A DNA stretch of 64,000 nt from Gallionella sp. (GTDB taxonomy: Bacteria; Pseudomonadota; Gammaproteobacteria; Burkholderiales; Gallionellaceae), in contig JADGRL010000004.1 in NCBI GenBank assembly GCA_017880865.1, positions 35,511 to 99,510 on the forward strand, given 5' to 3'. The notes beneath the pieces were generated by a model, which saw only the letters and a program-made list of their open reading frames with translations, was not told the origin of the DNA and made no database searches. Numbering within the stretch: the first letter of the stretch is position 1; every line of letters begins with the position of its first letter. Below, piece by piece: positions 16,367 through 34,077 of this stretch. The translations under genes and the position numbers were made by a program.

Positions 16367-16415
16367 TTGAACGCGACAAGATCGCGCAAGGAGCGCGGAT
16401 TATACAGCCCCAAAG

Positions 16416-16441
16416 AAAAACGCGCCTTGCGGCGCGTTTTT
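16416..16441. terminator. Rho-independent terminator candidate
   Basis: AAAAACGCGCCTTGCGGCGCGTTTTT hairpin downstream of the psiF-like gene. Confidence 0.75.
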
Positions 16442-16482
16442 AACGAAGCGATTAACGCCCGTCGACTGCGCTCAGGACAGGC

Positions 16483-16821
16483 TTAGGCCTTGAGACAGGA
16501 GCTCATGAACTTCTTGCGCTCGTCACCCTTGAGTGCTTTGGTCTTGGCGTCTGCATTGCAAGTCTTCATCTTATCTTGTTGCTTGACCGGAGCGGCAGCG
16601 CTGGCGACAGGCTTGGCATCGGTCTTCGCGGGAGCCGCAGCAGACTTCAACACGTAATCCTTTTTCAGGCATTTGCTCATGAACGCCTTGCGCTCATCGC
16701 CCTTCATGCCTTTGGCTTCTACGTTACAGCCCTTCATTTTTTCCTGTTGCGCGCCCGCGAAAGCCGGAGCCGAAACAGCGAATGTAAAACCCAAACATGC
16801 CAATGCGATCAGTTTTTTCAT
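16483..16821 (-). CDS. PsiF repeat protein (periplasmic, two repeats)
   Basis: Signal peptide; two copies of the QQ(E/D)KMK-C-N-(x)-A-K...GDERK-FMS-CLK motif. Confidence 0.85.
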   Translation of the reverse strand: MKKLIALACLGFTFAVSAPAFAGAQQEKMKGCNVEAKGMKGDERKAFMSKCLKKDYVLKSAAAPAKTDAKPVASAAAPVKQQDKMKTCNADAKTKALKGDERKKFMSSCLKA

Positions 16822-16913
16822 GGAATTCTCCTTGGTTTAAATCGTTGATTTTGTTCCCCATGCGGCGGAAGCGCGCGCATTATAGCGAAAGCTAGGCATT
16901 CAATCAGCAACAT

Positions 16914-17636
16914 TTATCGGCTATCTCTTCCAGCCCGCACACCCTTAAGCCAGCGCTCGTACAACCGAGTCGCCACGCTGTTCAAGCGCGACAGTTCGTC
17001 CGTCATGCTCCGCTGTATCTCAATCGTCGATTGCACCGCCGGACTGGCGCTGCTGGTCTTTACTTCATCGGCGCCCACCTCACACCAAATCGCGATCATC
17101 TCAACGGTCATCTCGATGTGGCATTGCAGCGCAAGATGACGGCCTATGGCGTAGGCTTGATTAATGCAATAGGCGCTGGACAGCAGGTGCGTCGCCCCTT
17201 GCGGCAAACTGAAGGTTTCGCCGTGCCAGTGAAACGCCTGAAAGTTTTTAATATCGCCAAACCAGCTGCGCGCGATGTCGTTGTTTGAAACCTGCACCTC
17301 GCCCCAGCCGATTTCCTTGACCGGATTGCGCATCACGACACCGCCCAAGGCCTTGGAGATCAGTTGTCCGCCGAGGCAATGCCCCAACAGCGGAATGTCT
17401 AGCGCGACGGCATCTCGGATCAATGTCTCAACTTTCGGTATCCACGGCAGATCGTCGTTGACGCTCATCGGCCCACCCATGAACACCAGTCCTGAGTAGG
17501 CCGTTGCGCTGGGCGGCACGACATCGCCAGCATCGATTGCGATCAGTTGCCACGGGATACCGCGCTCGTCGAGAAATTCGGCGAAATATCCGGGGCCTTC
17601 GGTTGAAGCATGGCGGAATATCGCGACAGGTTTCAT
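16914..17636 (-). CDS. Class I glutamine amidotransferase
   Basis: GLVFMGGPMSVNDDLPWI, LLGHCLGGQLISKALGG. Confidence 0.88.
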   Translation of the reverse strand: MKPVAIFRHASTEGPGYFAEFLDERGIPWQLIAIDAGDVVPPSATAYSGLVFMGGPMSVNDDLPWIPKVETLIRDAVALDIPLLGHCLGGQLISKALGGVVMRNPVKEIGWGEVQVSNNDIARSWFGDIKNFQAFHWHGETFSLPQGATHLLSSAYCINQAYAIGRHLALQCHIEMTVEMIAIWCEVGADEVKTSSASPAVQSTIEIQRSMTDELSRLNSVATRLYERWLKGVRAGRDSR

Positions 17637-17640
17637 GTCA

Positions 17641-17730
17641 TGTAGGGGCGTATGCCATAACCAGCGACTTAGTTGGTGTTTTTTGCCAACCTAGTCGAAT
17701 GGCTAGTTGTTTCATCAATACGCCCCTACA
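17641..17730. repeat. ~90-bp imperfect palindrome with 13-bp perfect terminal inverted repeats
   Basis: TGTAGGGGCGTAT (17641-17653) and ATACGCCCCTACA (17718-17730), with partly complementary interior. Confidence 0.7.
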
Positions 17731-18517
17731 ATGTTTTGTCCCGCTCGATCAGCGCATAGGCCGAATGGTTATGTATCGACTCGAAGTTCTCAGACTCGAC
17801 GATATAGGTATCGATGCGCTCATCGGCATCCAGCACCGCCGCCACGTCGCGCACCATGTCTTCGACGAATTTCGGGTTGTCGTAGGCGCGTTCGGTGACG
17901 AATTTTTCGTCGGGGCGTTTGAGCAAACCGTACAGCTCGCATGAGGCCTGCTCTTCGGCGATGCGCACCACGTCTTCGATCCAGACAAAACGGTTGGTGC
18001 GCAGCGTGAGCGTGACATGCGAACGCTGGTTATGCGCACCGCGCTCGGAAATCTTTTTCGAGCACGGGCACAGACTGGTAACCGGCACCAGCACCTTCAT
18101 CGTGACGCGCGGTTTGCCGTGTACCGTTTCGCCGATCAGCGTGACATCGTAATCGAGCAGGCTTTGCACACCCGACACCGGCGCGGTCTTGTTCACAAAA
18201 TACGGGAAGCTCATTTCGAGGTAGCCGGACTGCGCTTCCAGACGCGTCACCATTTCGCGCAGAATGCTCTCGAAGGATTCCACGGAAATCTCGCGCTCGT
18301 GCTCGTTGAGTATCTCGACGAAGCGCGACATGTGCGTGCCCTTGAAATTGTGCGGCAGGTGCACGTACATGTTGAATGTGGCGACCGTGTGCTGCACGCC
18401 GACGCTCTTGTCCTTCACCTTGATCGGATGGCGGATGCCTTTGATGCCGACGCGATCGATCGCCAGATGGCGGGTATCGGCGGAACTTTGCACGTCGGCA
18501 ATAGCGGGTACATTCAT
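17726..18517 (-). CDS. folE2: GTP cyclohydrolase FolE2
   Basis: [25 protein letters not shown]..., [28 protein letters not shown]. Confidence 0.95.
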
Positions 18518-18575
18518 GGCAAGCTTTCTATCGGGTTGCGATTATGCGAGATTATAACCAATCCCGACCAATTTA

Positions 18576-20444
18576 CTAGGTTGGATAATTTTTAATGCTG
18601 GCAATCAGGCCTTTGGCATCCAGACCGCAATCCGCCAGCATCTGCCCGTGTTCGCCCTGCTCGATGAATCGGTCCGGCAAGCCGAGTTGCAGCAGCGGAA
18701 TAACGATGCCGTGCTGTTGCAAACATTCCGCCACCGCGCTGCCCGCACCGCCTTGTATTGTGTTCTCTTCCACGGTCACCAGCAGCTCATGTTCGCGCGC
18801 CAGACGAAGCACCAATTCGGCATCCAGCGGTTTGACGAAACGCATGTTCGCCACCGTCGCATCAAGTTGTTCTGCCGCAGCCAGCGCAGGCGCCAGCATG
18901 GTACCGAATGCCAGTATCGCCACTCGACGACCCTCACGGCGCAACTCGCCACGACCGACAGGCAGAGCACTCATTTCGTTTTTGATCGCCACGCCCGGCC
19001 CGGTGCCGCGGGGATAACGCACCGCGCTCGGCGTGTTCAACAGCATGGCGGTATATAACATTTGACGGCATTCGTTCTCGTCAGCGGGAGCCATCACCGT
19101 CATGTTCGGGATGCAGCGCAAGAATGACAGATCGAAACTGCCCGCATGGGTCGCGCCATCCGCGCCGACCAGCCCGCCGCGATCGATCGCCAAAATCACA
19201 GGCAGGTTCTGGATCGCGATGTCGTGTATGAGTTGATCGTAAGCGCGCTGCAAGAAGGTCGAATAGATCGCCACCACCGGCTTGTAACCATCGCAGGCTA
19301 ATCCAGCGGCGAATGTCAGAGCGTGCTGTTCGGCGATGCCGACATCGAAATAACGTGCAGGAAAACGCCCGGAAAATTCCGCCATGCCCGAGCCTTCGCA
19401 CATCGCCGGGGTAATGCCCACCAAACGTTCATCCTGTGCCGCCATGTCGCACAGCCACTGTCCGAACACTTCGGTATATGTTGGATTCGCAGTCAGCCCT
19501 TCGACGTGGTTAGGGACAGGCTTGGCGGTGATACCCTGAATGCGGTCGAACTTGCCCACGCCGTGATACAGCAGACAATCCTGTTCGGCCAGCGCGTAGC
19601 CACGGCCCTTTTGCGTGACGATGTGCAGAAATTGCGGGCCTTCGAGTTGGCGGATGTTGCTCAAGGTATCCAGCAATACGTCCAGGTCATGACCGTCGAT
19701 CGGTCCGATATAGTTGAAACCGAATTCCTCGAACAGGGTACTCGGTGTCACCATGCCTTTGACGTGTTCTTCGGCGCGCTTGGCGAATTCCAGCACCGGC
19801 GGCATACCCTTCAACACCTTTTCGCTGCCGCGCCGCACCGCCGCATAAAATCGACCCGACATCAGACGGGCCAGATAATTGTTCAGCGCGCCTACGGGGC
19901 GCGAAATCGACATATCGTTGTCGTTGAGTATCACCAGCAGATTCGCATCCATCGCACCGGCGTTGTTCAGCGCCTCGAACGCCATACCGCCGGTCAGCGC
20001 GCCATCGCCGATGATCGCCACAGAACGGCGCTCGGAGCCTTGCAGTTTTGCCGCCACCGCCATGCCCAGTGCCGCCGAAATCGAGGTGCTGGAATGCCCG
20101 GTGCCGAAGGTGTCATACGGGCTTTCTTCGCGCTTCGGGAAACCGGCGATGCCGCCCGCCATGCGCAAATGGCTCATCGCCTCGCGCCGTCCGGTCAGAA
20201 TTTTGTGCGTATAGGTCTGATGGCCCACATCCCAGACCAGCTTGTCTTCCGGCGTATCGAAAATGGTGTGCAGCGCGATGGTCAACTCGACCGTGCCCAG
20301 ATTGGAGGATAAATGCCCGCCGGTATGGCTGACCGATTCGACCAGAAATTCGCGCAACTCACTCGCCAATTGCGGCAACTGCTCGCGCTCCAACGCACGC
20401 AGCTCGCCGGGGGTGTTGATGGTATCAAGTAAGGTGTACATCAA
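18576..20444 (-). CDS. dxs: 1-deoxy-D-xylulose-5-phosphate synthase
   Basis: [74 protein letters not shown]. Confidence 0.97.
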
Positions 20445-21352
20445 AACTTTCGCAATACGATGAAGTCGGCAAGTTCACGCAAACGCTGTGCGGAATCGCC
20501 GAATTCAGCCAGTGTTTCCAATGCTTCCCTGTGCAGGCGACTAGCCATGTTTCGAGCCTCATTTATTCCCAGCAGGCTGACGTAAGTCGGCTTGTCGTTG
20601 TCGGCATCCTTGCCCGCCGTCTTGCCCAGCGTGGCGGTATCCGCCTCGCAGTCCAGCACATCGTCCACCACCTGAAACGCCAGTCCGATCAGCTTGCCGA
20701 AACGATCAAGCTGGGCTAATTGCGCAGGCGAGACAGAACCGCATTGCGCGCCCAGCATCACCGCCGCACGGATCAACGCGCCGGTCTTGTGGATGTGCAT
20801 GAATTCCAGTTCAGGGAGTGTGAGCGACTTGCCCACGCTGGAAAGATCGATCGCCTGCCCGCCCGCCATGCCGCGCGATCCTGTGGCCACCGCCAGCAGC
20901 TTGATCATTTCCAGCTGGCTGGCCGCGTCAGCGCTCAAACGATGTTCCGCGAGCAGCTGAAATGCCAGCGTTTGCAGGCTGTCGCCGACCAGCAACGCGG
21001 TCGCATCATCATATTGCACATGGCAGGTCGGTTTGCCACGGCGCAACACATCGTCATCCATGCACGGCATGTCGTCATGCACCAGCGAATAGGCGTGGAT
21101 CAGTTCGACCGCTGCCGCCGCGATATTGACACGCTTGACATCCGCACCCACCAGCTCGCCTGCGGCAAACGCCAGCAACGGTCGCACGCGTTTGCCGCCG
21201 TCCAGCACCGCGTAGCGCATCGCCTCATGCAAGCGCTGCGGGGCGACTTCAGCACGCGGCAACAGCTCGCGCAACACGCCCTCGAAGCGCACCTGATGGG
21301 CCGCGATCCAGCCTTGAAAATCAGAGGCCATCTTAATTTTGCCCAGCGTCAT
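20441..21352 (-). CDS. ispA: Polyprenyl (farnesyl) diphosphate synthase
   Basis: [40 protein letters not shown] motifs; xseB-ispA-dxs order. Confidence 0.95.
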
Positions 21353-21575
21353 TATTCGTTGAGAAATCTTTCAGCACGCCGTCTTCCAGCACGCGCACCT
21401 GCTGCTGCGCGTCTTCAAGACGGGTGCGGCAGAACGACAACAGCTCCGCGCCGCGTTTATAAGCCGCCAGCGAATCTTCCAGCGACAAATTGCCCGCCTC
21501 CATATCGGCGACGATTTGCTCAAGCTCGGCCATGGACGATTCGAAGCCCGGCGTTTTTTGCGATTTACCAGCCAT
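21333..21575 (-). CDS. xseB: Exodeoxyribonuclease VII small subunit
   Basis: FESSMAELEQIVADMEAGNLSLEDSLAAYKRGAELLSFCRTRLEDAQQQV. Confidence 0.94.
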   Translation of the reverse strand: MAGKSQKTPGFESSMAELEQIVADMEAGNLSLEDSLAAYKRGAELLSFCRTRLEDAQQQVRVLEDGVLKDFSTNNDAGQN

Positions 21576-21808
21576 AAAAAACCTCTATTTGTGGATACCG
21601 CTATAAATACAAACTCAAATCATGATGAAACCACGGGTGGGACTGAGCGATACCGTGTCGTGACGGGGTTTTGATTTAGCGAGCTACCCTTGAGAAAGAC
21701 CGGCATTTTACCCAACGCACTCCGACTGAGCCAATTTTTGTTGCCCCCCCCATTAATTTCGGGGACAATCCCTAACTTACGTCGCATCAGAATATAGAAT
21801 ATTAAGGC

Positions 21809-22906
21809 ATGTCCGATATCGCCCTCATCAATCAACTCACCCCGGCTCAGGTTCAACCGCCGCTAGACTGGTACTTTAACCCCAAGGCGCTGGAAGCAGA
21901 GCAGCGCCTGCTATTCGAGCAAGGGCCGAATTACGTCGGGCATGAGCTGATGGTTCCCAATCTGGGCGACTATCAGGTGTTGGCCGGCGAGGCACAGATG
22001 CTGGTGCGCAATCCGAACGGCGTGGAGCTGCTCAGCAACATCTGCCGCCACCGTCAGGCCACGATGCTGCAAGGGCGCGGCAACGCGCAACACATCGTCT
22101 GCCCGCTGCATCGCTGGACTTATGAAACCAACGGGAAGCTGCTCGGCGCGCCGCACTTCCCCGAAAATCCCTGCCTGCATCTGAACAAATCGCCGCTGCA
22201 AAACTGGAACGGCCTGCTGTTCTCGGGCAAGCGCGACATCGCAAAAGACCTAGCCCGAGTCGGCGTGATGCAGGAAATCGACTTCTCCGGCTACATGCTC
22301 GATCGCGTGCAAGTGGACGAATACGCGTTCAACTGGAAGACCTTCATCGAGGTGTATCTGGAAGACTACCATGTCGTGCCGTTCCATCCGGGCCTAGGCA
22401 ACTTCGTCGATTGCGACGATCTGAAATGGGAATTCGGCGAACAGTACAGCGTGCAGACCGTCGGCATCCGTAACGGCTTGCGCAAGACCGGCAGCGATGT
22501 GTACGGCAAATGGCAGGAACAAGTGTTGCGCTATCACGGCGGCAAGCTGCCCAAATACGGCGCGATCTGGCTGACCTATTACCCCAACATCATGGTCGAG
22601 TGGTATCCGGGCACGCTGGTCGTCAGCACCCTGGTGCCGCGCGGCGTGGATGCCTGCACCAACATCGTCGAGTTTTATTACCTCGAAGACATCGTTCTGT
22701 TCGAGCGCGAATATGTCGAAGCCGAACAGAAAGCCTATAACGAAACCGCCGTCGAGGACGACATCATTTGTCTCAGGATGCATCAGGGACGAAAATCGCT
22801 GTACCAGCGCGGCATCGAAGAACACGGCCCCTACCAGTCGCCCACCGAAGACGGCATGCTGCACTTTCACGAGTACCTGCGCCGCAATCTGAGTTCTCAT
22901 CTCTAA
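21809..22906 (+). CDS. Rieske [2Fe-2S] ring-hydroxylating oxygenase alpha-subunit-like protein
   Basis: Rieske CRHRQATMLQGRGNAQHIVCPLHRWTYE; mononuclear Fe motif EVYLEDYHVVPFHPGL. Confidence 0.9.
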   Translation: MSDIALINQLTPAQVQPPLDWYFNPKALEAEQRLLFEQGPNYVGHELMVPNLGDYQVLAGEAQMLVRNPNGVELLSNICRHRQATMLQGRGNAQHIVCPLHRWTYETNGKLLGAPHFPENPCLHLNKSPLQNWNGLLFSGKRDIAKDLARVGVMQEIDFSGYMLDRVQVDEYAFNWKTFIEVYLEDYHVVPFHPGLGNFVDCDDLKWEFGEQYSVQTVGIRNGLRKTGSDVYGKWQEQVLRYHGGKLPKYGAIWLTYYPNIMVEWYPGTLVVSTLVPRGVDACTNIVEFYYLEDIVLFEREYVEAEQKAYNETAVEDDIICLRMHQGRKSLYQRGIEEHGPYQSPTEDGMLHFHEYLRRNLSSHL

Positions 22907-22916
22907 ACCATTCCGC

Positions 22917-23771
22917 ATGGGCGCGTTGTGGATGCTGGTCGCCAGTTTGCTGTTCGCCTGCATGGGGGTGTTCGTCAAACTCGGCGCAGCGTATTTCTCT
23001 CATATTGAGCTGGTGTTCTACCGCTCGTTCTTCGGCTTGGTGCTGGTCTTTCTGATCATGCGTTCACAGTGCGTCGGCGTGGCCACACACTATTGGCGCG
23101 CCCACCTGTGGCGCGGCATTTCCGGCTCGCTCGCGCTGGCGCTGTTCTTCTACTGCATCACCGTACTGCCACTCGCCACCGCCGTCACGCTCAACTACAC
23201 CGCGCCGCTGTTTCTCACGCTGCTGACGATACTGGTGTTCAAGGATAAATTTCATCTGCCGCTGACCCTCGCGATCGCGCTCGGATTCGGCGGCGTGGTA
23301 CTGCTGCTGCACCCGACGTTGCAACGCGATCAACTGCTGCCCGGCCTGCTCGGCCTGATCTCCGGCTTGCTCGCCGCAGTCGCCTATCTCAACGTCAAAC
23401 AACTCGGCGTCATCGGCGAACCGGAAACGCGTACCGTATTTTATTTCAGCCTGATCGCCACGATCGGCAGCGGCGTGTGGATGCTGTTCGGCACGACGCA
23501 TACCATCACCCCACAAGGCGCAGCTATCCTGTTAGGTCTGGGCGGCACCGGCACCTTGGCGCAACTCGCGATGACCCGCGCCTATCGCATCGGAAACACG
23601 CTGGTGGTCGGCAGTCTGGCGTACAGCACTATCATATTCGCCAGCCTGTTCGGCATGATGCTGTGGCATGAAATATTGCCGCTGACCAGTTGGCTGGGCA
23701 TGGCTCTCATCATCGCGGGTGGTGTGTTAAGCTTACGCCTGACACCCAAACACCCGTCTCAAAAACCATAA
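22917..23771 (+). CDS. DMT-family (EamA) transporter
   Basis: Ten hydrophobic segments in two repeated EamA-like halves. Confidence 0.88.
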   Translation: MGALWMLVASLLFACMGVFVKLGAAYFSHIELVFYRSFFGLVLVFLIMRSQCVGVATHYWRAHLWRGISGSLALALFFYCITVLPLATAVTLNYTAPLFLTLLTILVFKDKFHLPLTLAIALGFGGVVLLLHPTLQRDQLLPGLLGLISGLLAAVAYLNVKQLGVIGEPETRTVFYFSLIATIGSGVWMLFGTTHTITPQGAAILLGLGGTGTLAQLAMTRAYRIGNTLVVGSLAYSTIIFASLFGMMLWHEILPLTSWLGMALIIAGGVLSLRLTPKHPSQKP

Positions 23772-23783
23772 GCGAGCAGAAAA

Positions 23784-24131
23784 ATGATCACCATCGAACA
23801 AACCGAAAACCTCGTCAACATCGCCGTGCTGGGCGAATTCACGATCGCCGACTTCAAGACGTTTGAAGAGCAGTCCTTATACAAACTGAAATTCCCCGGC
23901 GAACTGAACCTGCTGCTCGACCTGCGCGCGATGGTCAGCTACACCGTGGACGTGGCCTGGGAAGACATCAAATTCTTCAAGCGCGAACACGACCACGACT
24001 TCAGCAAAATCGCCATCGTCACCGACAACCAGTGGATCACCTGGGCAGCTTGGCTGTCGCGCACCTTCATCAATGCCGACATGCGCGTGTTTGCCGATTA
24101 CAAAGAAGCGCAGGCCTGGGTTCAAGGTTAA
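23784..24131 (+). CDS. SpoIIAA-like / STAS-fold protein
   Basis: VNIAVLGEFTIADFKTFEE...LNLLLDLRAMVSYTVDVAWEDIKFFKRE; SpoIIAA-like pattern. Confidence 0.75.
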   Translation: MITIEQTENLVNIAVLGEFTIADFKTFEEQSLYKLKFPGELNLLLDLRAMVSYTVDVAWEDIKFFKREHDHDFSKIAIVTDNQWITWAAWLSRTFINADMRVFADYKEAQAWVQG

Positions 24132-24186
24132 AAAAATCAGGCGGGCACGCTTCAGGGTGGCTACCTTACGTTAGAGAGCAAACATA

Positions 24187-24492
24187 ATGCTCATGGAATT
24201 TGCTCGGAATATTAGCAATGGCGCTCATCTCTACTGGCATCGCCGTATTTCCACATACCCTATTCGTTGGCTCGTGCTTCTTTTTGCGTTTTGTGTCGTG
24301 GAGGTACTTTTGGTCGCTGTCGTTAGCGGTGAGTTTGCGCTTGCGTGGTTTGCGATTGGGGTAAGTTTTTTGGTCGGTGACATCACCACTCTAATCAAAA
24401 TAGCGAGGTGTCGTAATTGCGGGTTTGTCGTTGTGCCTGCTCCAACGTATCGTAAAGCGTGCCCGTCGTGCGGTCACATAATGCAACCATGA
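24187..24492 (+). CDS. Cassette 1: small membrane protein with C-terminal zinc ribbon
   Basis: Two hydrophobic segments followed by CRNCGFVVVPAPTYRKACPSCG; 11 bp between the GTTAGAG core and the ATG. Confidence 0.7.
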   Translation: MLMEFARNISNGAHLYWHRRISTYPIRWLVLLFAFCVVEVLLVAVVSGEFALAWFAIGVSFLVGDITTLIKIARCRNCGFVVVPAPTYRKACPSCGHIMQP

Positions 24493-24502
24493 GCGCAGGG
24501 CT

Positions 24503-24566
24503 CTCTACCCCCGCGGTCAAGCTAGACTGCGCTGATAAAGCCCAGCGCAGCCCCTTCACGTTAGAC
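24503..24566 (+). repeat. attC site 1
   Basis: R'' CTCTACC (one mismatch to CTCTAAC) ... CTGCGC-tgataaagccca-GCGCAG stem ... R' GTTAGAC; 64 bp. Confidence 0.75.
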
Positions 24567-24586
24567 CACAGTACGAAACCTATGCC

Positions 24587-24934
24587 ATGTCGATAAACTG
24601 GAAAACACGCTCACCTTTTTTTGGGCTCATACTCATACTGATACTGCAATTGGCATTTTCTGTAAGTTGTTTCTATTTTCATTACAAGTTTCAAGCCATC
24701 GCCACTAATCGAGCCGCAGCAAACGAAAGGCTAGAAACGAAGTTTCACGACATCAATTGTGATCGTATCAATAAGGAAGCCGTCATCGAAGTGATAAAGG
24801 GTTCTGTTACAGATGCAGAAAGCATTTCAGAGCTTTTTTTATATTGCGGTATTTTTATTGGTTGGACAGCTGGCTTTGCTTTGTTATCGCTTCTCAGTCT
24901 AAGAAAGAAATATGTTGCGAATAGTCCAGTCTAA
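24587..24934 (+). CDS. Cassette 2: hypothetical two-TM protein
   Basis: Short ORF with N- and C-terminal hydrophobic segments; stop codon lies inside attC2 R'' box. Confidence 0.65.
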   Translation: MSINWKTRSPFFGLILILILQLAFSVSCFYFHYKFQAIATNRAAANERLETKFHDINCDRINKEAVIEVIKGSVTDAESISELFLYCGIFIGWTAGFALLSLLSLRKKYVANSPV

Positions 24935-24985
24935 CCCTGCGCTCAAGCGGGACTGCGCAAGAGCGCGCAGCTTAGCTCGTTAGAG
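24929..24985 (+). repeat. attC site 2
   Basis: R'' GTCTAAC; L'' GCT(C)AAG pairing L' CTTAGC with one extrahelical base; CTGCGC/GCGCAG stem; R' GTTAGAG; 57 bp. Confidence 0.88.
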
Positions 24986-25013
24986 TTACGGGACTATTTG
25001 AGGCGCTATCAAA

Positions 25014-25379
25014 ATGAAAAAACTTCTGTGGTTTAACGCAATTGTGACGGTGTTTTTTCTCCTCACCTCGCTAGGTATCTACGGATGGTGGAATTTTACC
25101 GCCTCACGACCACTCCTAAAACAGCTTCCGCAAGTCACAATCGAGAACGCCAAAACGATGACGGATTTGGATCATTTGCGAAAATTAAATCTTCTATTGA
25201 TCGACAAAAGTCGAATAGAGGTCGCTGGAATAAACGATGTTATAGAGAAATCTGTGAAAGCAAATGAAAGCCTTGCGCAAATGGTATTCATTCTTTTCCT
25301 AGTGAACAGCGTTTGGCTGTATCGGTTGCTGCATGCTCAGCCCCTTAATAAATCCGGCGATGATAGCTCTAACGCTTAA
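25014..25379 (+). CDS. Cassette 3: hypothetical two-TM protein
   Basis: Short ORF with N- and C-terminal TM segments; end overlaps attC3 R'' box. Confidence 0.65.
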   Translation: MKKLLWFNAIVTVFFLLTSLGIYGWWNFTASRPLLKQLPQVTIENAKTMTDLDHLRKLNLLLIDKSRIEVAGINDVIEKSVKANESLAQMVFILFLVNSVWLYRLLHAQPLNKSGDDSSNA

Positions 25380-25412
25380 ACGGAACTGGATACGCAGCCC
25401 CTCAATTTAAAC
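25367..25412 (+). repeat. attC site 3, degenerate/truncated
   Basis: R'' CTCTAAC, TACGCAGCCCCTCA resembling attC1 GCGCAGCCCCTTCA, R' degenerate TTTAAAC in place of GTTRRRY; 46 bp. Confidence 0.6.
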
Positions 25413-25434
25413 ACCCCCCCCTGAGAAACATAAA

Positions 25435-25983
25435 ATGACCCCAATACTTATTTTCGCCTTCGTTTCAGTCTTTTTTGTGTTTGTTTCCAGGAAGACGCTG
25501 CTCCGCCTTCAGTCGCACGGCTTCTACCGGTTCTTTGCGTGGGAGTGTATCGCGGCGCTGGTCTTGCTCAATTTTCCGCATTGGGTAAAAAATCCGTTCT
25601 CCCTGCTCCAGATCATTTCATGGCTGCTTATCGCCGCTTCCGTCTTTCTGGTGGTTCATGGCGTGCGCCTGCTTCAGATGATCGGCAAACCCGATCAGAA
25701 CCGATCTGATACCGAGTTGCTGGAATTTGAAAAAACCACTCAGCTGGTTACGGTGGGCGCCTACAAATACATCCGCCATCCGCTCTATGCTTCACTGCTG
25801 TTTCTCGCGTGGGGTGCTTTTCTTAAAGACCCCTCATGGATCGGCCTGCTGCTGGCCTCTATCGCTTCGTTTTTCCTGCTCCTGACCGCCAAGAGCGACG
25901 AATCCGAATGTCTGCGGCATTTCGGGAGCACGTATCAAACCTATATGCAGGGAACCAAAAAGTTTATTCCTTTCATCTTTTAA
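25435..25983 (+). CDS. Isoprenylcysteine carboxyl methyltransferase-family membrane protein
   Basis: Several TM segments, GAYKYIRHPLYASLLFLAWG motif typical of ICMT/PEMT-like proteins. Confidence 0.75.
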   Translation: MTPILIFAFVSVFFVFVSRKTLLRLQSHGFYRFFAWECIAALVLLNFPHWVKNPFSLLQIISWLLIAASVFLVVHGVRLLQMIGKPDQNRSDTELLEFEKTTQLVTVGAYKYIRHPLYASLLFLAWGAFLKDPSWIGLLLASIASFFLLLTAKSDESECLRHFGSTYQTYMQGTKKFIPFIF

Positions 25984-26035
25984 AAGAACCCGATGGGCCA
26001 GCATTGCCCATTACTCCAAAATTTCTCCGCAAAAC

Positions 26036-26060
26036 AAAAAACCCGCTCTCGCGGGTTTTT
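26036..26060. terminator. Rho-independent terminator candidate (likely bidirectional)
   Basis: AAAAAACCCGCTCTCGCGGGTTTTT hairpin between convergent genes. Confidence 0.8.
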
Positions 26061-26085
26061 CTTTGTACAACTAAGCCAGCCTGAA

Positions 26086-26244
26086 TTACTTCAGCTTGGT
26101 TTCCTTGTACATGACATGCTTGCGTGCCTTAGGATCGTATTTCTTCATTTCAAGCTTTTCAGGCGTGGTGCGCTTGTTTTTGGTCGTGGTGTAGAAATGA
26201 CCAGTGCCGGCACTGGATTCAAGTTTGATTTTTTCGCGAGCCAT
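26086..26244 (-). CDS. rpmG: 50S ribosomal protein L33 (52 aa, below the ORF-track cutoff)
   Basis: [52 protein letters not shown]. Confidence 0.95.
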
Positions 26245-26255
26245 TTTTTATCTCC

Positions 26256-26492
26256 TTAAACGTTTACGCCACGGGCGCGTACTTCAACCAGCACCGCGTC
26301 GATACCATTCTTGTCGATGGTGCGCAGCGCTGCATTAGTCAAGCGCAAGCTGACCCAGCGGTTTTCGCTCTCGACCCAGAAGCGGCGACGTTGCAGATTC
26401 GGCAAGAAACGACGCTTGGTTTTATTGTTTGCGTGGGAAATATTGTTTCCCGACATCGGGCCTTTGCCCGTCACTTGACATACACGTGCCAT
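26256..26492 (-). CDS. rpmB: 50S ribosomal protein L28
   Basis: [34 protein letters not shown]. Confidence 0.97.
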
Positions 26493-26585
26493 AGCTCTAC
26501 TCCAACCAATTTCAAAAGAGCGCGGATTCTACCTAATGAATCGGGAATGATCAACCTGAATTTTCAGCAAGGGTGACGTGACTCC

Positions 26586-26629
26586 CTGTAATCAATCTGC
26601 AACACAGCCTTAACCCAACTGAAACATCC
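26586..26629 (+). promoter_or_regulatory. Pho-box-like array (four 11-bp units)
   Basis: CTGTAATCAAT CTGCAACACAG CCTTAACCCAA CTGAAACATCC, followed by GGGAATTATG; CTGNAAC at 11-bp spacing; first 18 bp resemble CTGTCATAWAWCTGTCAC. Confidence 0.55.
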
Positions 26630-26671
26630 GGGAATTATGCTGCCGCGCATCCCACTCACAGGATATTTACG

Positions 26672-28465
26672 ATGAAAACGCTTCAGGACATACTACAGCA
26701 GCGCAACCTCTCTGCACTCTTCCAGCCGATCATGGACATTTCCAGCGGCACGTTTCTGGGCTTTGAGGGGCTGATACGCGGCCCGGCCAATAATCCGCTG
26801 CATTCGCCCATCAACCTGTTCGGCGCAGCCAAACAACAAGGGCTTTCACTGGAAGTTGAAATGTTGTGCAGACAGATTGTGCTGGAGTCCTTTGCCGCCC
26901 AAAATTTGCCCGGACATCTGTTCCTGAATGTCAGCCCGGAAGCGTTGACGCACCCCAGCTTTAAAAACGGACAGACTCTGTCCTACCTTGAAAATCTCGG
27001 CATCGACCCGAAACGGGTCATCATCGAAATCACCGAGAATCAGCCCACCTTCGATTTTGCGGGGATGCGCAATGCACTGCTGCACTACCGCAGCATGGGC
27101 TTCCAGATTGCAATCGACGATCTGGGCGAAGGCTTTTCGAGTTTGCGCTTGTGGTCTGAATTGCGTCCCGAATTTGTAAAGATAGACATGCATTTCGTGC
27201 AGGGCGTCAATTCCGACCCGCTCAAACAACAATTTCTGCGATCGATTCAAAGCATCGCGCTGAGCTCCGGCACACAAGTAATCGCGGAAGGCATCGAGTC
27301 GGCTGCCGAATTCAAATTCATCCGCGATATCGGGATCGCCTGCGGTCAGGGTTATTTCATTGCACGCCCCAATCACGTTCCGCCATTGAACGCATCCGCC
27401 GAAGTCGGGTGTCTGATCAACACGAACCACCCCGCAGAGCAACCCTATAGCAATGTCCGCAGCGTCACGGTCGAAACTATCTTGCGTTATGTTGAGCCCG
27501 TCCAGCCGGAAACCGAGATTGAAAAAATATTCGCCCAGTTTACCGAAGATAAAAACTTGCGCGCCCTGCCTGTCGTTAAAAATGGACGTCCGGTCGGATT
27601 GATCAACCGTTATGAGTTCGTGGACAACCTGGCCCAGCCATACCGCCGCGAACTGCTCTGCAAAAAACCTTGCTCGGACATGATGAATGCGCTGCCCTTG
27701 CTGGTGGAGAAATCGACGCCTATCCATGAATTGAGCGGGTTTTTGAGTGAATCAGAAATCCGGCATTTTACCGACGGCTTCATCATCACCGAGCAAGGCC
27801 GCTACATCGGGATCGGCTCGGGACAAGACCTGCTGCGCGAAATCACCAAGGCGCAGATCGAAACCGCGCGCTATGCCAACCCGCTGACCTTATTGCCCGG
27901 CAATGTCCCGATCAATGAGCACATCGAGCATTTGCTTCAATCCGAAAAATCATTCTCCGTCTGTTATGGTGACCTCGATAACTTCAAGCCCTTCAACGAT
28001 GTGTGCGGCTATCGCAAAGGTGACGAGTTGATCCAATTCACCGGCAAGCTGCTCGGCACTTTCTGCGACCCGGTGCACGATTTTATCGGCCATATCGGCG
28101 GTGACGATTTCATTATGGTTCTGCAAAGCCCGGATTGGGAGCAACGTTGCAATCAGGCACTGTCCGCTTTTGCGCGCACCTCAACGGCACTGTTCGACAA
28201 AGATCACCGCTCGGTCGGCGGTTATCTGAGCGGCGATAGACAAGGTCGCACCGTTCATCATCCGCTGCCCACGCTCTCGATCGGCGTAATCCGGGTTAAC
28301 CCGGAATTTTTCAGTTCGCACCATGAGGTGGCCGAAGCCGCCACGTCCGCAAAAAAAATGGCCAAGGAAAAACTCGGCAATAGTCTGTTCATCGAACGGC
28401 GTCGTCTGCACCCACACCAGATGGTAGAAAATCAACTCGATACTTTGGAGGTTCATTATGGATAA
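26672..28465 (+). CDS. EAL - CBS - GGDEF c-di-GMP signalling protein
   Basis: EAL-domain residues (EGLIRGP, LFLNVSPE, IEITENQ, IDDLGEGFSSL, VKIDMHF, IAEGIES), CBS pair, C-terminal degenerate GGDDF motif. Confidence 0.9.
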   Translation: MKTLQDILQQRNLSALFQPIMDISSGTFLGFEGLIRGPANNPLHSPINLFGAAKQQGLSLEVEMLCRQIVLESFAAQNLPGHLFLNVSPEALTHPSFKNGQTLSYLENLGIDPKRVIIEITENQPTFDFAGMRNALLHYRSMGFQIAIDDLGEGFSSLRLWSELRPEFVKIDMHFVQGVNSDPLKQQFLRSIQSIALSSGTQVIAEGIESAAEFKFIRDIGIACGQGYFIARPNHVPPLNASAEVGCLINTNHPAEQPYSNVRSVTVETILRYVEPVQPETEIEKIFAQFTEDKNLRALPVVKNGRPVGLINRYEFVDNLAQPYRRELLCKKPCSDMMNALPLLVEKSTPIHELSGFLSESEIRHFTDGFIITEQGRYIGIGSGQDLLREITKAQIETARYANPLTLLPGNVPINEHIEHLLQSEKSFSVCYGDLDNFKPFNDVCGYRKGDELIQFTGKLLGTFCDPVHDFIGHIGGDDFIMVLQSPDWEQRCNQALSAFARTSTALFDKDHRSVGGYLSGDRQGRTVHHPLPTLSIGVIRVNPEFFSSHHEVAEAATSAKKMAKEKLGNSLFIERRRLHPHQMVENQLDTLEVHYG

Positions 28466-29330
28466 GCATACGCAGCATTTGCCCGTCAGCCTGTTCCGGG
28501 GCAGCCGCCTCGCCCTGCACTTTTGTTATGGGATGCTGCTGGCCGTCATTTACCCGCATCTGAATCAAGCCCGTCGACGTCGCGCGATGAAGGCCTGGAG
28601 CCGGCAACTGCTGAGCATCCTCAACATCGGCATCCAGATCGAGGGTCCGCAACCTTCGCGCAGCGACGGCGGATGCCTGATCGTCGCGAACCATGTCTCG
28701 TGGCTGGATGTTTTAGTGCTGAATGCCATTTACCCTTCGCGTTTCATAGCCCAATCCGAGGTACGCAGTTGGCCCGTCATCGGCTGGCTATGCCGTCGTG
28801 TTGGCACGGTATTCATTGAGCGTGCGATGCATCAGGATGCCGCATCGGTCAATCGGCATGTGGGCGCACTGCTCAAACAAGACGTTTGCGTGGGACTTTT
28901 TCCGGAAGGCACCACGACAAACGGCAAACAGGTCGGACACTTTCATTCGGCATTTTTCCAGCCCGCGATCGACGCGGGGGTCAGAGTTTGCCCGATTGCA
29001 CTGCGCTACCAGGATAAAAATAGAGGGCCGAGCACCACGGCGGTTTTAACTGGTGACATGACGCTTGCTCAATCCATCTGGAAAATCCTGCGCTGCCCGC
29101 GTCTCAACGCATTGGTGGTGTTCACCCCCGCACTGCCAACCGCCAACGAGAACCGCCGCGTGTTGGCACGCGCCGCACAGGAATCCATCGCGCAAGGACT
29201 GAAAAATATTGGCTACACCCGGCAAGCCGTCACGCAACAGCCCGTATCCGCCTTTTCGCAAACCGTGCTTACATCACAGTCGGCTTATGCATTGCTTGTC
29301 GATCCGCTATTCAATCAGCACCCCAAGTAA
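28458..29330 (+). CDS. PlsC-family acyltransferase (OlsA-like)
   Basis: NHVSWLDVLVL (NHxxxxD), FPEGTTTNG motifs; followed by OlsB-like gene. Confidence 0.87.
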   Translation: MDKHTQHLPVSLFRGSRLALHFCYGMLLAVIYPHLNQARRRRAMKAWSRQLLSILNIGIQIEGPQPSRSDGGCLIVANHVSWLDVLVLNAIYPSRFIAQSEVRSWPVIGWLCRRVGTVFIERAMHQDAASVNRHVGALLKQDVCVGLFPEGTTTNGKQVGHFHSAFFQPAIDAGVRVCPIALRYQDKNRGPSTTAVLTGDMTLAQSIWKILRCPRLNALVVFTPALPTANENRRVLARAAQESIAQGLKNIGYTRQAVTQQPVSAFSQTVLTSQSAYALLVDPLFNQHPK

Positions 29331-29342
29331 AATTTAACAGTT

Positions 29343-29386
29343 CTTTCATATTCCCTTCATCTGGCTGCAACAAGACTCTCGTAACC
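29343..29386 (+). promoter_or_regulatory. Pho-box-like array upstream of olsB-like gene
   Basis: CTTTCATATTC CCTTCATCTGG CTGCAACAAGA CTCTCGTAACC 11-bp periodic units. Confidence 0.5.
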
Positions 29387-29417
29387 TGCATGCATCTTCA
29401 ACATCAAGGAGCATGAA

Positions 29418-30167
29418 ATGCACGGACTTAGCCTTAAAACACAAGCCACCGACCTATCCTATTTAACCACCTCTTTAGCGCGTGACGGTGATGAGATTCT
29501 TGAAGTGCAGCGCCTGCGCTACCAGGTGTGCTCTGAGGAAATGGGCGCACATCTATCCAACGCAGAAGAAAGTTTGTACTGTGATGCACAGGACAACTAT
29601 TGCGAACATTTATTGATGCGTGAAAGTGACGACAATAATGTAGTGGGCACTTACCGCATACTCTCTCCCGGCAGGGCAAAAAAATTCGGCGGCTACTTTT
29701 CGCAAACCGAATTTGATTTATCGCGCTTGCAGTCTCTGAGCGACCGGATGGTGGAAATCGGGCGCGCCTGTGTGCAATTGGATTATCGCGACACCGAAAG
29801 CATCAATTTTCTGTGGGGCGGCTTGGCCCAATACATGCAAGAAAACAACCACGAATATCTGATCGGCTGCGAGAGCATCAGCATGGCGGATGGCGGCCAT
29901 GAAGCGGCCAGCCTCTATCGCAAGCTGTGCCGGATCTATTCCGCCCCGATTGAATACACCGTGTACCCGCATCGCCCGCTGCCGCTGTACGCGCTGAATC
30001 AATATCTCGATGTGCCGATTCCGCCGCTGCTCAAGGGCTATCTGCGGATGGGCGCTTACCTCTGCGGAGAACCATCCTTTGATCCCGAATTCAATACCGC
30101 CAATTTTTTGATCCTGCTGCCGATGTCGCGCATGGGCAGCCGCTACGCCAGACGTTTTGTTAAATAG
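29418..30167 (+). CDS. olsB: GNAT-type N-acyltransferase, OlsB-like (ornithine lipid synthesis)
   Basis: EILEVQRLRYQVCSEEMGAHL..., VGTYRILSP, MVEIGRACVQLDYR, LIGCESISMAD; adjacent PlsC-family gene. Confidence 0.75.
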   Translation: MHGLSLKTQATDLSYLTTSLARDGDEILEVQRLRYQVCSEEMGAHLSNAEESLYCDAQDNYCEHLLMRESDDNNVVGTYRILSPGRAKKFGGYFSQTEFDLSRLQSLSDRMVEIGRACVQLDYRDTESINFLWGGLAQYMQENNHEYLIGCESISMADGGHEAASLYRKLCRIYSAPIEYTVYPHRPLPLYALNQYLDVPIPPLLKGYLRMGAYLCGEPSFDPEFNTANFLILLPMSRMGSRYARRFVK

Positions 30168-30208
30168 CGGACACTTGCCCAGACACACATTTTCGCTTTT
30201 TAACAAAT

Positions 30209-30241
30209 CTGTCATATTCCGTTCATCAATTCTTAACACGC
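30209..30241 (+). promoter_or_regulatory. Pho-box-like array upstream of porin
   Basis: CTGTCATATTC CGTTCATCAAT TCTTAACACGC 11-bp units; first unit matches the CTGTCAT half-site exactly. Confidence 0.55.
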
Positions 30242-30304
30242 GCTGGTTAATCTGCGCGGGTCGCACAAGGCGGCTTTATTAATAAAGACTAAGGAGTCAT
30301 CATA

Positions 30305-31537
30305 ATGATGCAAAAGAAAGTAATCGTTGTCGCACTGACTGCAGCTATCGCGTTGCCTGTATCGGCTTTGGCCGACAATGCGAACTTCACATTCTATGGC
30401 ACAGTTGACGTGTCTCACGACACAGTCAGAACCGGCAACGGTACTACTGCCGCTGTTACAACTGCTAGCCCTACCGGCAAAGCCGCTGTCGCCGGTGTGA
30501 CCAAGCAAGTCGTATCGAGCAACGTGTCCAAATTCGGTTTCAAGGGTTCTGAAGATCTGGGTGGCGGTCTGGCCGCGATCTGGCAGGTTGAGCAACAAAT
30601 CAACATCGACAACTCGTCAAACTCCTGCGCTGCGACAACTATACCTGCTGTTGCTGCTGGTGCAGCAGCGCCCGCTGTTACAGTTCCCGCTTGTACCGCC
30701 AACAACGGTATTTTCGCTACCCGCAATACGTTTGGTGGCTTGAAGAGCGACAGTTTGGGTACCGTGCTGATGGGTCGCCACGACACTCCGTACAAACTCG
30801 CTACACGCAAACTGGATGTGTTTGCTGACAACATCGGCGACAACCGTGCGTTATTGGGTAACAAGAGCGCTGCTGGCTTCGAACTCCGCGCAACCGATGT
30901 ATTGGCTTACATCAGCCCGGCATTCGCTGGTGTGACTGTAGCTGTTGCGACAGTCAATCTGACTGAATCCAATACCAATAATACTCAGAAGAATAACGGC
31001 GCGCTGAGCATGGCGGTAATGTATGACGCTGCTCCGTTCTACGCTTCTGTGGCGCATGAGTCGCACAAGCTGGAAACCACGTTATCTGGTGCAAATGAAT
31101 CCGCTAACCGCTTCGGCTTCGGCTTCACCCAGGACATGTTCACAGTGGGTTTGGTATATGAGAAGACCACCGACAACCTCGGCAACGGCGCACTGCAAAC
31201 CAACCTGTACGGTCACACTGCATTCTATGTGGGCGGCAAGGTCAAAGTCGGCAACGGCGCTGTGAAACTGGCCTACGGCAAGGCTGGTCAATTGGCTAAT
31301 ACGACTGTTGCGACTACTGTTGCGACTACGCCTACAGATACTGGTGCAAGCCAGATTTCTGTCGGTTACGACCACAACATGAGCAAGCGTACCACGCTGT
31401 ATGCCCTGTATACCAAGATAACCAACGGCCAAGGCATCAACTACGGCTTCTCGCAGAACTCCGGTGCGTCCAGCACCACTTCTGGCTACGGTACAACGCC
31501 TTCCGCGCTGTCCCTCGGTTTGAAGCATTCGTTCTAA
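30305..31537 (+). CDS. Gram-negative porin
   Basis: Signal peptide, NFTFYGTVDVSHD..., SKFGFKGSEDLGGGLAAIWQVEQQ, C-terminal LSLGLKHSF. Confidence 0.92.
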   Translation: MMQKKVIVVALTAAIALPVSALADNANFTFYGTVDVSHDTVRTGNGTTAAVTTASPTGKAAVAGVTKQVVSSNVSKFGFKGSEDLGGGLAAIWQVEQQINIDNSSNSCAATTIPAVAAGAAAPAVTVPACTANNGIFATRNTFGGLKSDSLGTVLMGRHDTPYKLATRKLDVFADNIGDNRALLGNKSAAGFELRATDVLAYISPAFAGVTVAVATVNLTESNTNNTQKNNGALSMAVMYDAAPFYASVAHESHKLETTLSGANESANRFGFGFTQDMFTVGLVYEKTTDNLGNGALQTNLYGHTAFYVGGKVKVGNGAVKLAYGKAGQLANTTVATTVATTPTDTGASQISVGYDHNMSKRTTLYALYTKITNGQGINYGFSQNSGASSTTSGYGTTPSALSLGLKHSF

Positions 31538-31597
31538 ATGAAATAACCAGCCACTTACCCACTGTATTTTGGTGGGTTAGTGGAATGGCTATGTAAT

Positions 31598-31630
31598 AAA
31601 AAGCGGGGCTCTTCGGAGTCCCGTTTTTTA
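31598..31630 (+). terminator. Rho-independent terminator candidate
   Basis: AAAAAGCGGGGCTCTTCGGAGTCCCGTTTTTTA. Confidence 0.75.
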
Positions 31631-31672
31631 TTGCACTGGTGTCGGGGCGCGATGAATCGAGCCCCTACCTAA

Positions 31673-32704
31673 TTATTTACTTTGCTTGCCAAGCTCATAC
31701 CAACCCTGCGTGGCATTGGCGATTTTCACCACCAGCAACATCACCGGTACTTCGACCAGCACGCCGACCACGGTGGCTAATGCCGCACCCGATTGAAAGC
31801 CGAACAGGCTGATCGCGGTGGCCACCGCCAGTTCGAAGAAGTTGCTCGCGCCGATTAAGGCGGACGGTGCGGCGATGCAATGCGCCACACCCAGACGACG
31901 ATTTAACCAGTACGCCAACCCGGAGTTGAACAATACCTGGATCAGAATCGGCACGGCCAGCATCGCGATCACCAGCGGTTGCGCGACGATGGCATTACCC
32001 TGCAAAGCGAACAGCAACACCAGAGTCAGCAACAGCGCGCCCATCGATAACGGTGCGATGCGCTCCATTGCCTGTTTAAAAACTACCTCGCCCTTCGCCA
32101 GCAAGCGTCGGCGCAATAATTGCGCGAACATGACCGGGATCACAATGTAAAAAATCACCGAGACGAGTAGCGTATCCCACGGCACGGCGATGCTGGCGAT
32201 GCCGAGCAATAAACCCACCAGCGGCGCGAAGGCGAAAATCATGATCGTATCGTTGAGTGCGACTTGCGACAGCGTGAAATACGGGTCGCCCTTCACCAGA
32301 TTACTCCACACGAACACCATCGCGGTACAGGGCGCGGCGGCCAGCAAAATCAGACCTGCTATATAACTGTCGAGCTGATCCTGCGGCAGATAGTCGGCGA
32401 ATACATGACGTATGAACAGCCAGCTGAGGAAGGCCATCGAGAAAGGCTTGACGCCCCAGTTGATGAACAGCGTGACAGCGATACCGCGGCTATGCGCCCG
32501 GACCTGATGCAGCGCGCCGAAGTCTATTTTCAGCAGCATCGGAATAATCATCACCCACACCAGTACACCGACCGGAATGTTGATTCGGGCAATTTCCAGA
32601 CCGGCGATGACTTGGAACACACCCGGGAAGAATTGCCCGAGCAGCACGCCTGCGATGATGCACAGCCCGACCCAGACGGTCAGGTAACGCTCGAATAAAT
32701 TCAT
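31673..32704 (-). CDS. arsB: ACR3-family arsenite efflux transporter
   Basis: ACR3/BASS-family TM protein with AAPCTAMVFVWSNLVKGDPYFTLSQVALND; next to arsC/arsR. Confidence 0.93.
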   Translation of the reverse strand: MNLFERYLTVWVGLCIIAGVLLGQFFPGVFQVIAGLEIARINIPVGVLVWVMIIPMLLKIDFGALHQVRAHSRGIAVTLFINWGVKPFSMAFLSWLFIRHVFADYLPQDQLDSYIAGLILLAAAPCTAMVFVWSNLVKGDPYFTLSQVALNDTIMIFAFAPLVGLLLGIASIAVPWDTLLVSVIFYIVIPVMFAQLLRRRLLAKGEVVFKQAMERIAPLSMGALLLTLVLLFALQGNAIVAQPLVIAMLAVPILIQVLFNSGLAYWLNRRLGVAHCIAAPSALIGASNFFELAVATAISLFGFQSGAALATVVGVLVEVPVMLLVVKIANATQGWYELGKQSK

Positions 32705-32734
32705 CTCGACTCCTTCAATGTGTGCGTTGAGGTT

Positions 32735-33082
32735 TCATGGTTTGGTTACCCGATCACCACAAGTTGTGATCGGCTGAGTAACGGCTGGAGTGGTTACACA
32801 ACAAGAGCTGGCACGAACTTTCGTTTCCGGCGTTGCAGGGCCGAGATAGCGTTCAGCAAGATTCAGCATGGCGTGCGCAGGAGTATCTTTGACTTTCTGA
32901 GCAAGATCGACGGCGTAACGCATATCCGAATTGCTGACACCGAGTTTTCGCGCCTGATCGTAATGGTATTTGAGACAAGGCTCGCAATTGCTGGCGATGG
33001 CCGCACCGATGGCAACCAATTCTGCAACTTGCTCGGTAAAAATCGAAGCGTCAGATGAATCCAATATTTTTGTTTTCTTCAT
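32735..33082 (-). CDS. Carboxymuconolactone decarboxylase/AhpD-family protein
   Basis: LVAIGAAIASNCEPCLKYHYDQARKLGVSNSDMRYAVDLA (CxxC...H). Confidence 0.82.
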   Translation of the reverse strand: MKKTKILDSSDASIFTEQVAELVAIGAAIASNCEPCLKYHYDQARKLGVSNSDMRYAVDLAQKVKDTPAHAMLNLAERYLGPATPETKVRASSCCVTTPAVTQPITTCGDRVTKP

Positions 33083-33092
33083 CGCAAATTCT

Positions 33093-33590
33093 TCAGTCTT
33101 GGATGCGACCGATTTCGGCGAGTTTTTCTTTCAGTGTGAGCTTGTCCAATTTTTCGATAGGCAAACTCAGGAACAACTGGATACGACGCGCCAGTTGCTC
33201 GGCGGCTTTCTTGAACGCAGCGCGCCGCGCTTCATCGCCATCGACATGCGCCGGATCGGGGATGCCCCAGTGCGCTGTGGCCGGATGTCCCAGCCACAGC
33301 GGGCAGGCTTCGCCAGCCGCGTTATCGCACACGGTGAAAATAAAATCGAATTGTGGCGCACCGGGTGCAGCGAACTCGTCCCAGCTTTTGCTGCGCAACC
33401 CTTCAGTGCTGTGCCCCTGCTCCTTTAACCATTCCAGCGCGCCCGGATTGACTCGCCCGGCGGGCTTGCTGCCTGCGCTGTAGGCCTTGAACCGGCCTTT
33501 GCCCAGACTGTTGAACAGCACTTCGCCCAGGATGCTGCGCGCGGAATTGCCGGTACACAACACCAGCACGTTGTATTTTTTGTCTTGCAA
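33093..33590 (-). CDS. arsC: Arsenate reductase, low-MW phosphatase type
   Basis: NVLVLCTGNSARSILGEVLFN; SAGSKPAGRVNP; ars context. Confidence 0.93.
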   Translation of the reverse strand: MQDKKYNVLVLCTGNSARSILGEVLFNSLGKGRFKAYSAGSKPAGRVNPGALEWLKEQGHSTEGLRSKSWDEFAAPGAPQFDFIFTVCDNAAGEACPLWLGHPATAHWGIPDPAHVDGDEARRAAFKKAAEQLARRIQLFLSLPIEKLDKLTLKEKLAEIGRIQD

Positions 33591-33615
33591 GATTAACTCC
33601 TTAAAAAAGTAACAA

Positions 33616-33933
33616 TTATTTGTTGTTCGGATTGCAGGCCTCAGGATTCCCGCCGCAGCAGTTTTCTGTCAGGTACGCCAGCATGTCATTCATCACCGTG
33701 AAATTCGCGGCGTAGTAGACAAAACGCCCGTCCTGCCTGCCCTCAATCAGCCCAGCATGATCCAGTGTTTTAAAATGGAACGACATCGTTGCCGGAGATA
33801 CTTTCAGCCTCTCGGCCACCTGCCCTGCCGCCATGCCCTCCGGCCCACGCTCCACCAGCAAGCGATAAATCGCCAAGCGTGTGGGTTGGGCCAGTGCTGA
33901 CAATGCTTTTACTACTTGTGCCGATTTCATCAT
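33616..33933 (-). CDS. arsR: ArsR-family transcriptional regulator
   Basis: ALSALAQPTRLAIYRLLVERGPEGMAAGQVAERLKVSPATMSFHFKTLDHAGLI. Confidence 0.92.
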   Translation of the reverse strand: MMKSAQVVKALSALAQPTRLAIYRLLVERGPEGMAAGQVAERLKVSPATMSFHFKTLDHAGLIEGRQDGRFVYYAANFTVMNDMLAYLTENCCGGNPEACNPNNK

Positions 33934-34077
33934 TTTATATTTCCATTATTAAACAAACATCAAAATGATGATGTGTGATTAAAACACCAAAATTGTGGTC
34001 AGGCAAGATGATCCCAACAAACAATACAAGGGATGAATTTAACTCCGGATAGACAGCACTCCGGAACACAGTAATAA

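Follow-up and report, generated by a model that had tools for sequence, protein, structure and literature searches.

An integron cassette array without intI in Gallionella, headed by the end of an attI and probably a remnant of a chromosomal integron

The window analysed here, a stretch of 64,000 nucleotides on contig 19 of the draft genome of an iron-oxidising Gallionella bacterium (2.85 Mb in 84 contigs), bears a short array of gene cassettes between two chromosomal flanks. The left flank is a SpoIIAA-like (STAS-type, PF11964) gene at 23784–24131 on the plus strand (Pfam, E 1.8e-25), co-directional with the array, and the right flank is rpmG-rpmB at 26086–26492 on the minus strand, identified by tblastn synteny. 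Within the interval the GC content falls to 42–49%, compared with 55–60% upstream. The three small same-strand open reading frames (ORFs) claimed in the initial annotation are found here, all on the plus strand, at 24187–24492 (cassette 1, 101 aa), 24587–24934 (cassette 2, 115 aa) and 25014–25379 (cassette 3, 121 aa). The boxes that it had read as cassette boundaries are also in place, namely GTTAGAG at 24170, CTCTACC at 24503, GTTAGAC at 24560, GTCTAAC at 24929, GTTAGAG at 24979 and CTCTAAC at 25367. It had not seen the attI remnant at the left edge of the array, the intact intI elsewhere in the genome and the possible fourth gene at 25435–25983.

We scored the sites behind the ORFs with a covariance model (R1) that uses the known attC pairing and whose training set, 13 attC sites in all, came from relatives and from the genome's other contigs and included no site of the window. 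In an unfiltered scan of positions 14000–34000, attC2 (24929–24985, plus strand, R'' GTCTAAC, R' GTTAGAG) scores 47.9 bits (E 3e-11) and attC1 (24503–24566, plus strand, R'' CTCTACC, R' GTTAGAC) scores 28.7 bits (E 7e-6), and the third-best match reaches 10.2 bits. A palindromic element had been proposed after each ORF; the model bears this out for attC1 and attC2 but gives no match in the same scan for attC3 (25367–25412, plus strand). Relative to the genus consensus, five bases are missing from attC1, and attC2 shows internal deletions of CCC and two or three more bases. The third site is heavily decayed, and its alignment with the flank of a relative (L126, ...GACGTTGACCCATGAGAAACATAAAATG) shows that R'' CTCTAAC is intact and the GTTG of R' is gone. 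Folding of the bottom-strand DNA, a check suggested with the initial annotation, supports attC1 (z -2.2) and, weakly, attC2 (z -0.9), but not attC3 (z +0.9). No attC family is listed in the window by Rfam at the gathering score. Across the whole genome, R1 finds 26 attC sites, the best of them mostly in the apparent main array on contig 74, which is broken over contig ends at attC repeats, and the two window sites score below most in the same genome (28.7 and 47.9 bits versus typically 50–87 bits). Thus, attC1 and attC2 are real attC sites that have decayed. IntegronFinder 2 defines a CALIN by at least two clustered attC sites (PMC9024848), and the window has two, 426 bp apart, by a genus model rather than IntegronFinder's own; a TIGR02249 search of the whole genome places no integron integrase nearby. 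The earlier label "CALIN-like" is therefore right by definition, this being a real cassette array with no neighbouring integrase.

The cassettes encode small membrane-like proteins for which Pfam, NCBIfam and PADLOC provide no helpful family. The protein of cassette 1 has hydrophobic stretches and a zinc-ribbon-like C-terminal end with Cys pairs, its only family matches being weak, sub-threshold ones to zinc ribbons. The cassette 2 ORF, whose stop codon lies inside R'', has one homologue (57% aa identity, L198) among the 76 genomes of the genus, and this homologue is itself a cassette in another Gallionella genome, flanked by attC sites that score 80 and 87 bits. Cassette 3, which also encodes a small membrane-like protein, has no homologue in the other genomes among these 76. 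Behind the array lies a gene for a PEMT/ICMT-like methyltransferase of 182 aa (25435–25983, plus strand, PF04191/PF04140). This gene may be the fourth and last cassette, now deprived of its attC, because in L126 it occupies the same position directly after a half attC. However, it has no attC of its own and none lies near its homologues in two other genomes, and its status as a fourth cassette is thus unproven. The NG86 dN/dS is ~0.28 for the methyltransferase and also for cassette 2, where dS is near saturation; these values are consistent with selection on both proteins.

The array opens with the end of an attI. About 30 nt of it remain at 24143–24172 on the plus strand, starting 11 bp past the stop codon of the SpoIIAA-like gene, and they contain the G|TT crossover (24170/24171). 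An nhmmer search with 10 intI-linked attI sites as the query recovers this remnant (E 0.0015) in register with R'. At ten related intI genes the attI terminates in ...AGGGTGTCTACTTTACGTT or close variants, and the counterpart in the window is CGCTTCAGGGTGGCTACCTTACGTT; because the attI-like sequence ends at 24172, cassette 1 has this GTT as its R'. Among the 22 bases before the GTT, 18 are identical with the genus attI in register, whereas none of the 1,864 other GTTs on the two strands of the window matches it at more than 13 of 22. The intI side of the attI and the entire intI are gone from the window, with no intI codon left. As in a complete integron, the attI lies beside the first cassette, though cut to about 30 nt. 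An attG site would show an unrelated left flank and a match at GTT only, but here the attI similarity reaches ~30 nt leftward. No promoter-like site was found between the attI and cassette 1.

To place the array among relatives, we compared 80 named loci bearing the SpoIIAA-like gene, with as much as 7 kb of sequence to either side, all from drafts or metagenome assemblies; the window locus has its nearest named relatives in metagenome assemblies of Gallionella and Gallionellaceae. The gene order in relatives is EamA, SpoIIAA-like gene, a variable interval and rpmG-rpmB, and in many of them the SpoIIAA-like orthologue adjoins the array site or rpmG. Four loci (L166, L171, L184 and L196) are uninserted, with the flanking genes adjacent at 78–116 bp, and cassette content varies by species, which is what the initial annotation had suggested looking for in related strains. 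In 13 of the 80 relatives there is an attI relic behind the SpoIIAA-like gene, and attC sites were detected in four of these 13 (two each in L120 and L122, one each in L124 and L136), where the ORFs behind the relics differ among species. In L156 and L154, about 10 and 18 of the 5' codons of intI are kept, antisense and directly abutting the attI (int5 model, E 0.0008 and 0.009). These show that intI, or at least its 5' end, was once present at the SpoIIAA-rpmG site. An intact intI was not found at this site in any of the 80 loci as far as the contigs reach, and none of the intI places examined in the genus is near the SpoIIAA-like gene.

The nearest relatives on a tree of SpoIIAA and EamA show three different states: L125 has an attI cut short and no cassettes, L126 has a half attC (16.6 bits) followed by the methyltransferase, and L136 has an attI with a different cassette. 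The attI relics form no clade on this tree, on which they require 11 changes and are weakly more clustered than chance. A single clean origin is not shown, and either many losses or several insertions are required by the scatter. Judged from the tree, such a pattern would be as expected of an old feature lost many times, with repeated insertion as the alternative. In two of these relatives, a MITE-like insertion with inverted ends AAGACCTCTG...CAGAGGTCTT lies between the SpoIIAA-like gene and the attI (L125:1664-1806 and L136:7348-7490). Elsewhere, two adjacent ORFs behind the attI relic of L122 (8063-8583) resemble, by eye, an antitoxin and a ParE-type toxin; toxin-antitoxin pairs are common in cassette arrays.

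The absence of intI noted in the initial annotation holds within the window but not for the genome. Contig 74 bears an intact integron integrase (TIGR02249, 494.7 bits versus a cut-off of 265) with attI and attC beside it; this is the sole full match to TIGR02249 in the genome, and contig 19 has none. An intI adjacent to both an attI and an array, as in a complete integron, was found neither in the window nor in the loci of the 80 named relatives, as far as their contigs reach. The same genome has a second attI without intI, located after rsmI (L293, G000 contig 46:8800-14000) and accompanied by two attC matches of 29.9 and 22.9 bits. In another genome, G079, rsmI likewise has an attI without intI (L286).

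A DNA search for attI over 76 genomes of the genus gave matches in 38 of them. Among 51 places examined, an intact intI accompanies the attI at 14, a partial one at 9 and first codons only at another 9; 17 places show no trace of intI, and 2 run into contig ends. The 35 attI copies without an intact neighbouring intI thus form a series from internal deletions (in two of the 9 partial genes, codons 1-71/75 are joined to 296-331) to bare attI ends, and the attI end at GTT is retained in nearly all of the 51 places. The attI copies lie beside glmU, rsmI, argA, argJ, ackA, der, hemH and other genes (names read from translations), and at the glmU site intI is intact in some species and truncated in others. 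Behind several of the copies that lack an intact intI there are attC sites that share their orientation. In L289, an attC of 83.4 bits stands 305 bp behind an attI reduced to ~39 nt, and its good preservation suggests a possible recent insertion in trans.

Intact intI genes (L001 and L060-L088, gene names read from translations) are located at several loci, 5' of nagZ, glmU, an ABC transporter gene, hemH, ruvA and others, which implies that the integron, or copies of it, moved between chromosomal sites. The left ends of intI-less attI copies cluster at model positions 62-75, just outside the repeat AAGGTGCCTTT; the clustering would be explained if function constrains attI or if the inverted repeat CACCTCGAAGGTG is a deletion hotspot, and alignment edges could be another source. 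It is also seen that elements start exactly at the attI crossover (GTTGAACT...) in L012, L066, L068, L088, L255, L260, L261, L265 and L281. The one on contig 74 of the same genome (L012:1318-2483) encodes an IS91-family transposase (NF033538, E 2e-86), and L302 has at the crossover a tyrosine recombinase ~34% identical to IntI. IS91-like elements seem to have been inserted repeatedly at attI.

Very probably, the array descends from a chromosomal integron that lost intI and decayed in place, since it starts with the attI of the genus and since the same site in relatives has attI together with the first intI codons. The initial annotation had offered either a remnant or a capture in trans; the attI remnant and the intI codons of relatives speak for the remnant, whereas capture at an arbitrary site is disfavoured. 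Such a capture would mean that the IntI of contig 74 put cassettes into an ordinary GTT, of attG type, after the SpoIIAA-like gene. The genome does have an intact IntI (494 bits), the array lies far from the contig 74 integron, and the use of attG sites by IntI is known (PMC12444791, PMC12901181). An attG insertion, however, predicts no attI sequence, whereas 18 of the 22 bases left of the crossover are those of the genus attI, a count that reaches no more than 13 elsewhere, and attI relics, some with intI codons, recur at the same site in 13 of the 80 relatives. We consider this origin very unlikely, and off-target attG insertion was rejected because the left flank matches attI. A rearrangement, in which homologous recombination detached part of the main array of contig 74 or an assembly mis-join placed it here, might be suspected in a draft of 84 contigs whose main array is broken at attC repeats. 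Yet the array sits in the interior of a long contig, between the genes that flank the site in relatives too, opens with its own, diverged attI end, and has attC sites that have decayed further than most others of the genome (28.7 and 47.9 versus mostly 50–87 bits), which leaves a rearrangement scarcely credible.

A closer competitor supposes that the 5' end of intI, the attI and the cassettes arrived together as a translocated fragment, with no complete integron ever at this locus. It would agree with the many loci that carry attI copies without an intact intI, with the lack of an intact intI at the SpoIIAA-rpmG locus in every genome examined, and with the known movement of partial attI in delta-attI-type cassettes of mobile integrons (PMC12901181). 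But left endpoints vary among species at this one locus, and the glmU site bears intact and truncated intI, both of which fit decay in place; moreover, the known delta-attI cassettes have the partial attI after the ORF and not before it, as here. This explanation is improbable, though not to the degree of those above. As for ordinary small genes followed by chance palindromes, attC3 alone would be unremarkable, but chance is excluded for attC2 at E 3e-11, the attI register count (18/22 versus at most 13/22) speaks against it as well, and the homologue of cassette 2 sits between high-scoring attC sites in another genome. The probability of this reading is close to nil.

If the array is a remnant that lost intI, an integron would have stood in an ancestral Gallionella, flanked by the SpoIIAA-like gene and rpmG-rpmB. 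Its intI, convergent with the former gene, would have been followed by attI and by cassettes toward rpmG. Because no genome examined has an intact intI at this locus, the complete ancestor is only inferred. The cassettes presumably entered as circles by IntI-mediated attC × attI recombination, with the integrase in cis or in trans, as judged from cassette structure and known integron biology. Comparison with relatives suggests that a deletion from the SpoIIAA side would then have taken away the whole of intI and the greater part of attI, leaving the crossover-proximal ~30 bp of attI and at least three cassettes. The attC sites would have decayed since then, and this decay indicates that the array is now probably fixed and argues for low activity with IntI in trans. 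The IntI of contig 74 might in principle still use the attI remnant or attC1 and attC2 at low efficiency, but the array is probably inert as far as its sequence tells, and expression of its cassettes may rely on read-through from upstream genes that run in the same direction. A broader and rather doubtful reading is a distributed integron, in which one integrase would serve in trans scattered attI-headed arrays without their own intI, the window array being a decayed member. If this is true, each array would keep a functional attI end after losing intI.

Three routes to CALINs have been proposed, namely off-target insertion, loss of intI and rearrangement (Cury et al., as presented in PMC8618304), and among these, as they are set out there, loss of intI fits best. 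This route has itself been proposed in the literature before, and the genus-wide series supports it for the SpoIIAA-rpmG locus. With the CALINs of Cury et al., in the form described in PMC8618304 and PMC9024848, the array shares two scoring attC sites, small same-strand ORFs and the lack of a nearby intI. It differs in that a recognisable attI end is kept in the window and intI 5' codons are kept in relatives, so that loss of intI as the route of origin can be read from the sequence. The array is thus a CALIN of integron-remnant type with an unusually clear origin, and it is the recognisable attI of Gallionella that makes the route readable. The graded left ends, from intact intI to bare attI, make the intI-loss route directly testable, and screening CALINs for attI remnants can tell remnants from off-target insertions. 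To our knowledge, CALINs outside the classical classes have seldom been examined for attI. A limited literature search, with most subscription papers outside its scope, found no report on integron structure in Gallionella or on attI-headed arrays without intI.

In the delta-attI-type cassettes of class 1 and class 2 integrons, the partial attI is the crossover-proximal end, as in the window; there, however, it replaces attC downstream of the ORF (PMC12901181), whereas in the window it stands at the head of the array and precedes the first cassette. The degenerate chromosomal integrons of Xanthomonas, a close precedent, have intI at ilvD, often inactivated, and CALINs at conserved loci (PMC12444791). 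The Gallionella integrons resemble them in the genus-wide platform, in the inactivation of intI by deletions among other lesions and in the conserved positions of CALINs (PMC12444791). Unlike Xanthomonas, Gallionella has intact intI at several loci, and its attI copies outnumber its intact intI genes.
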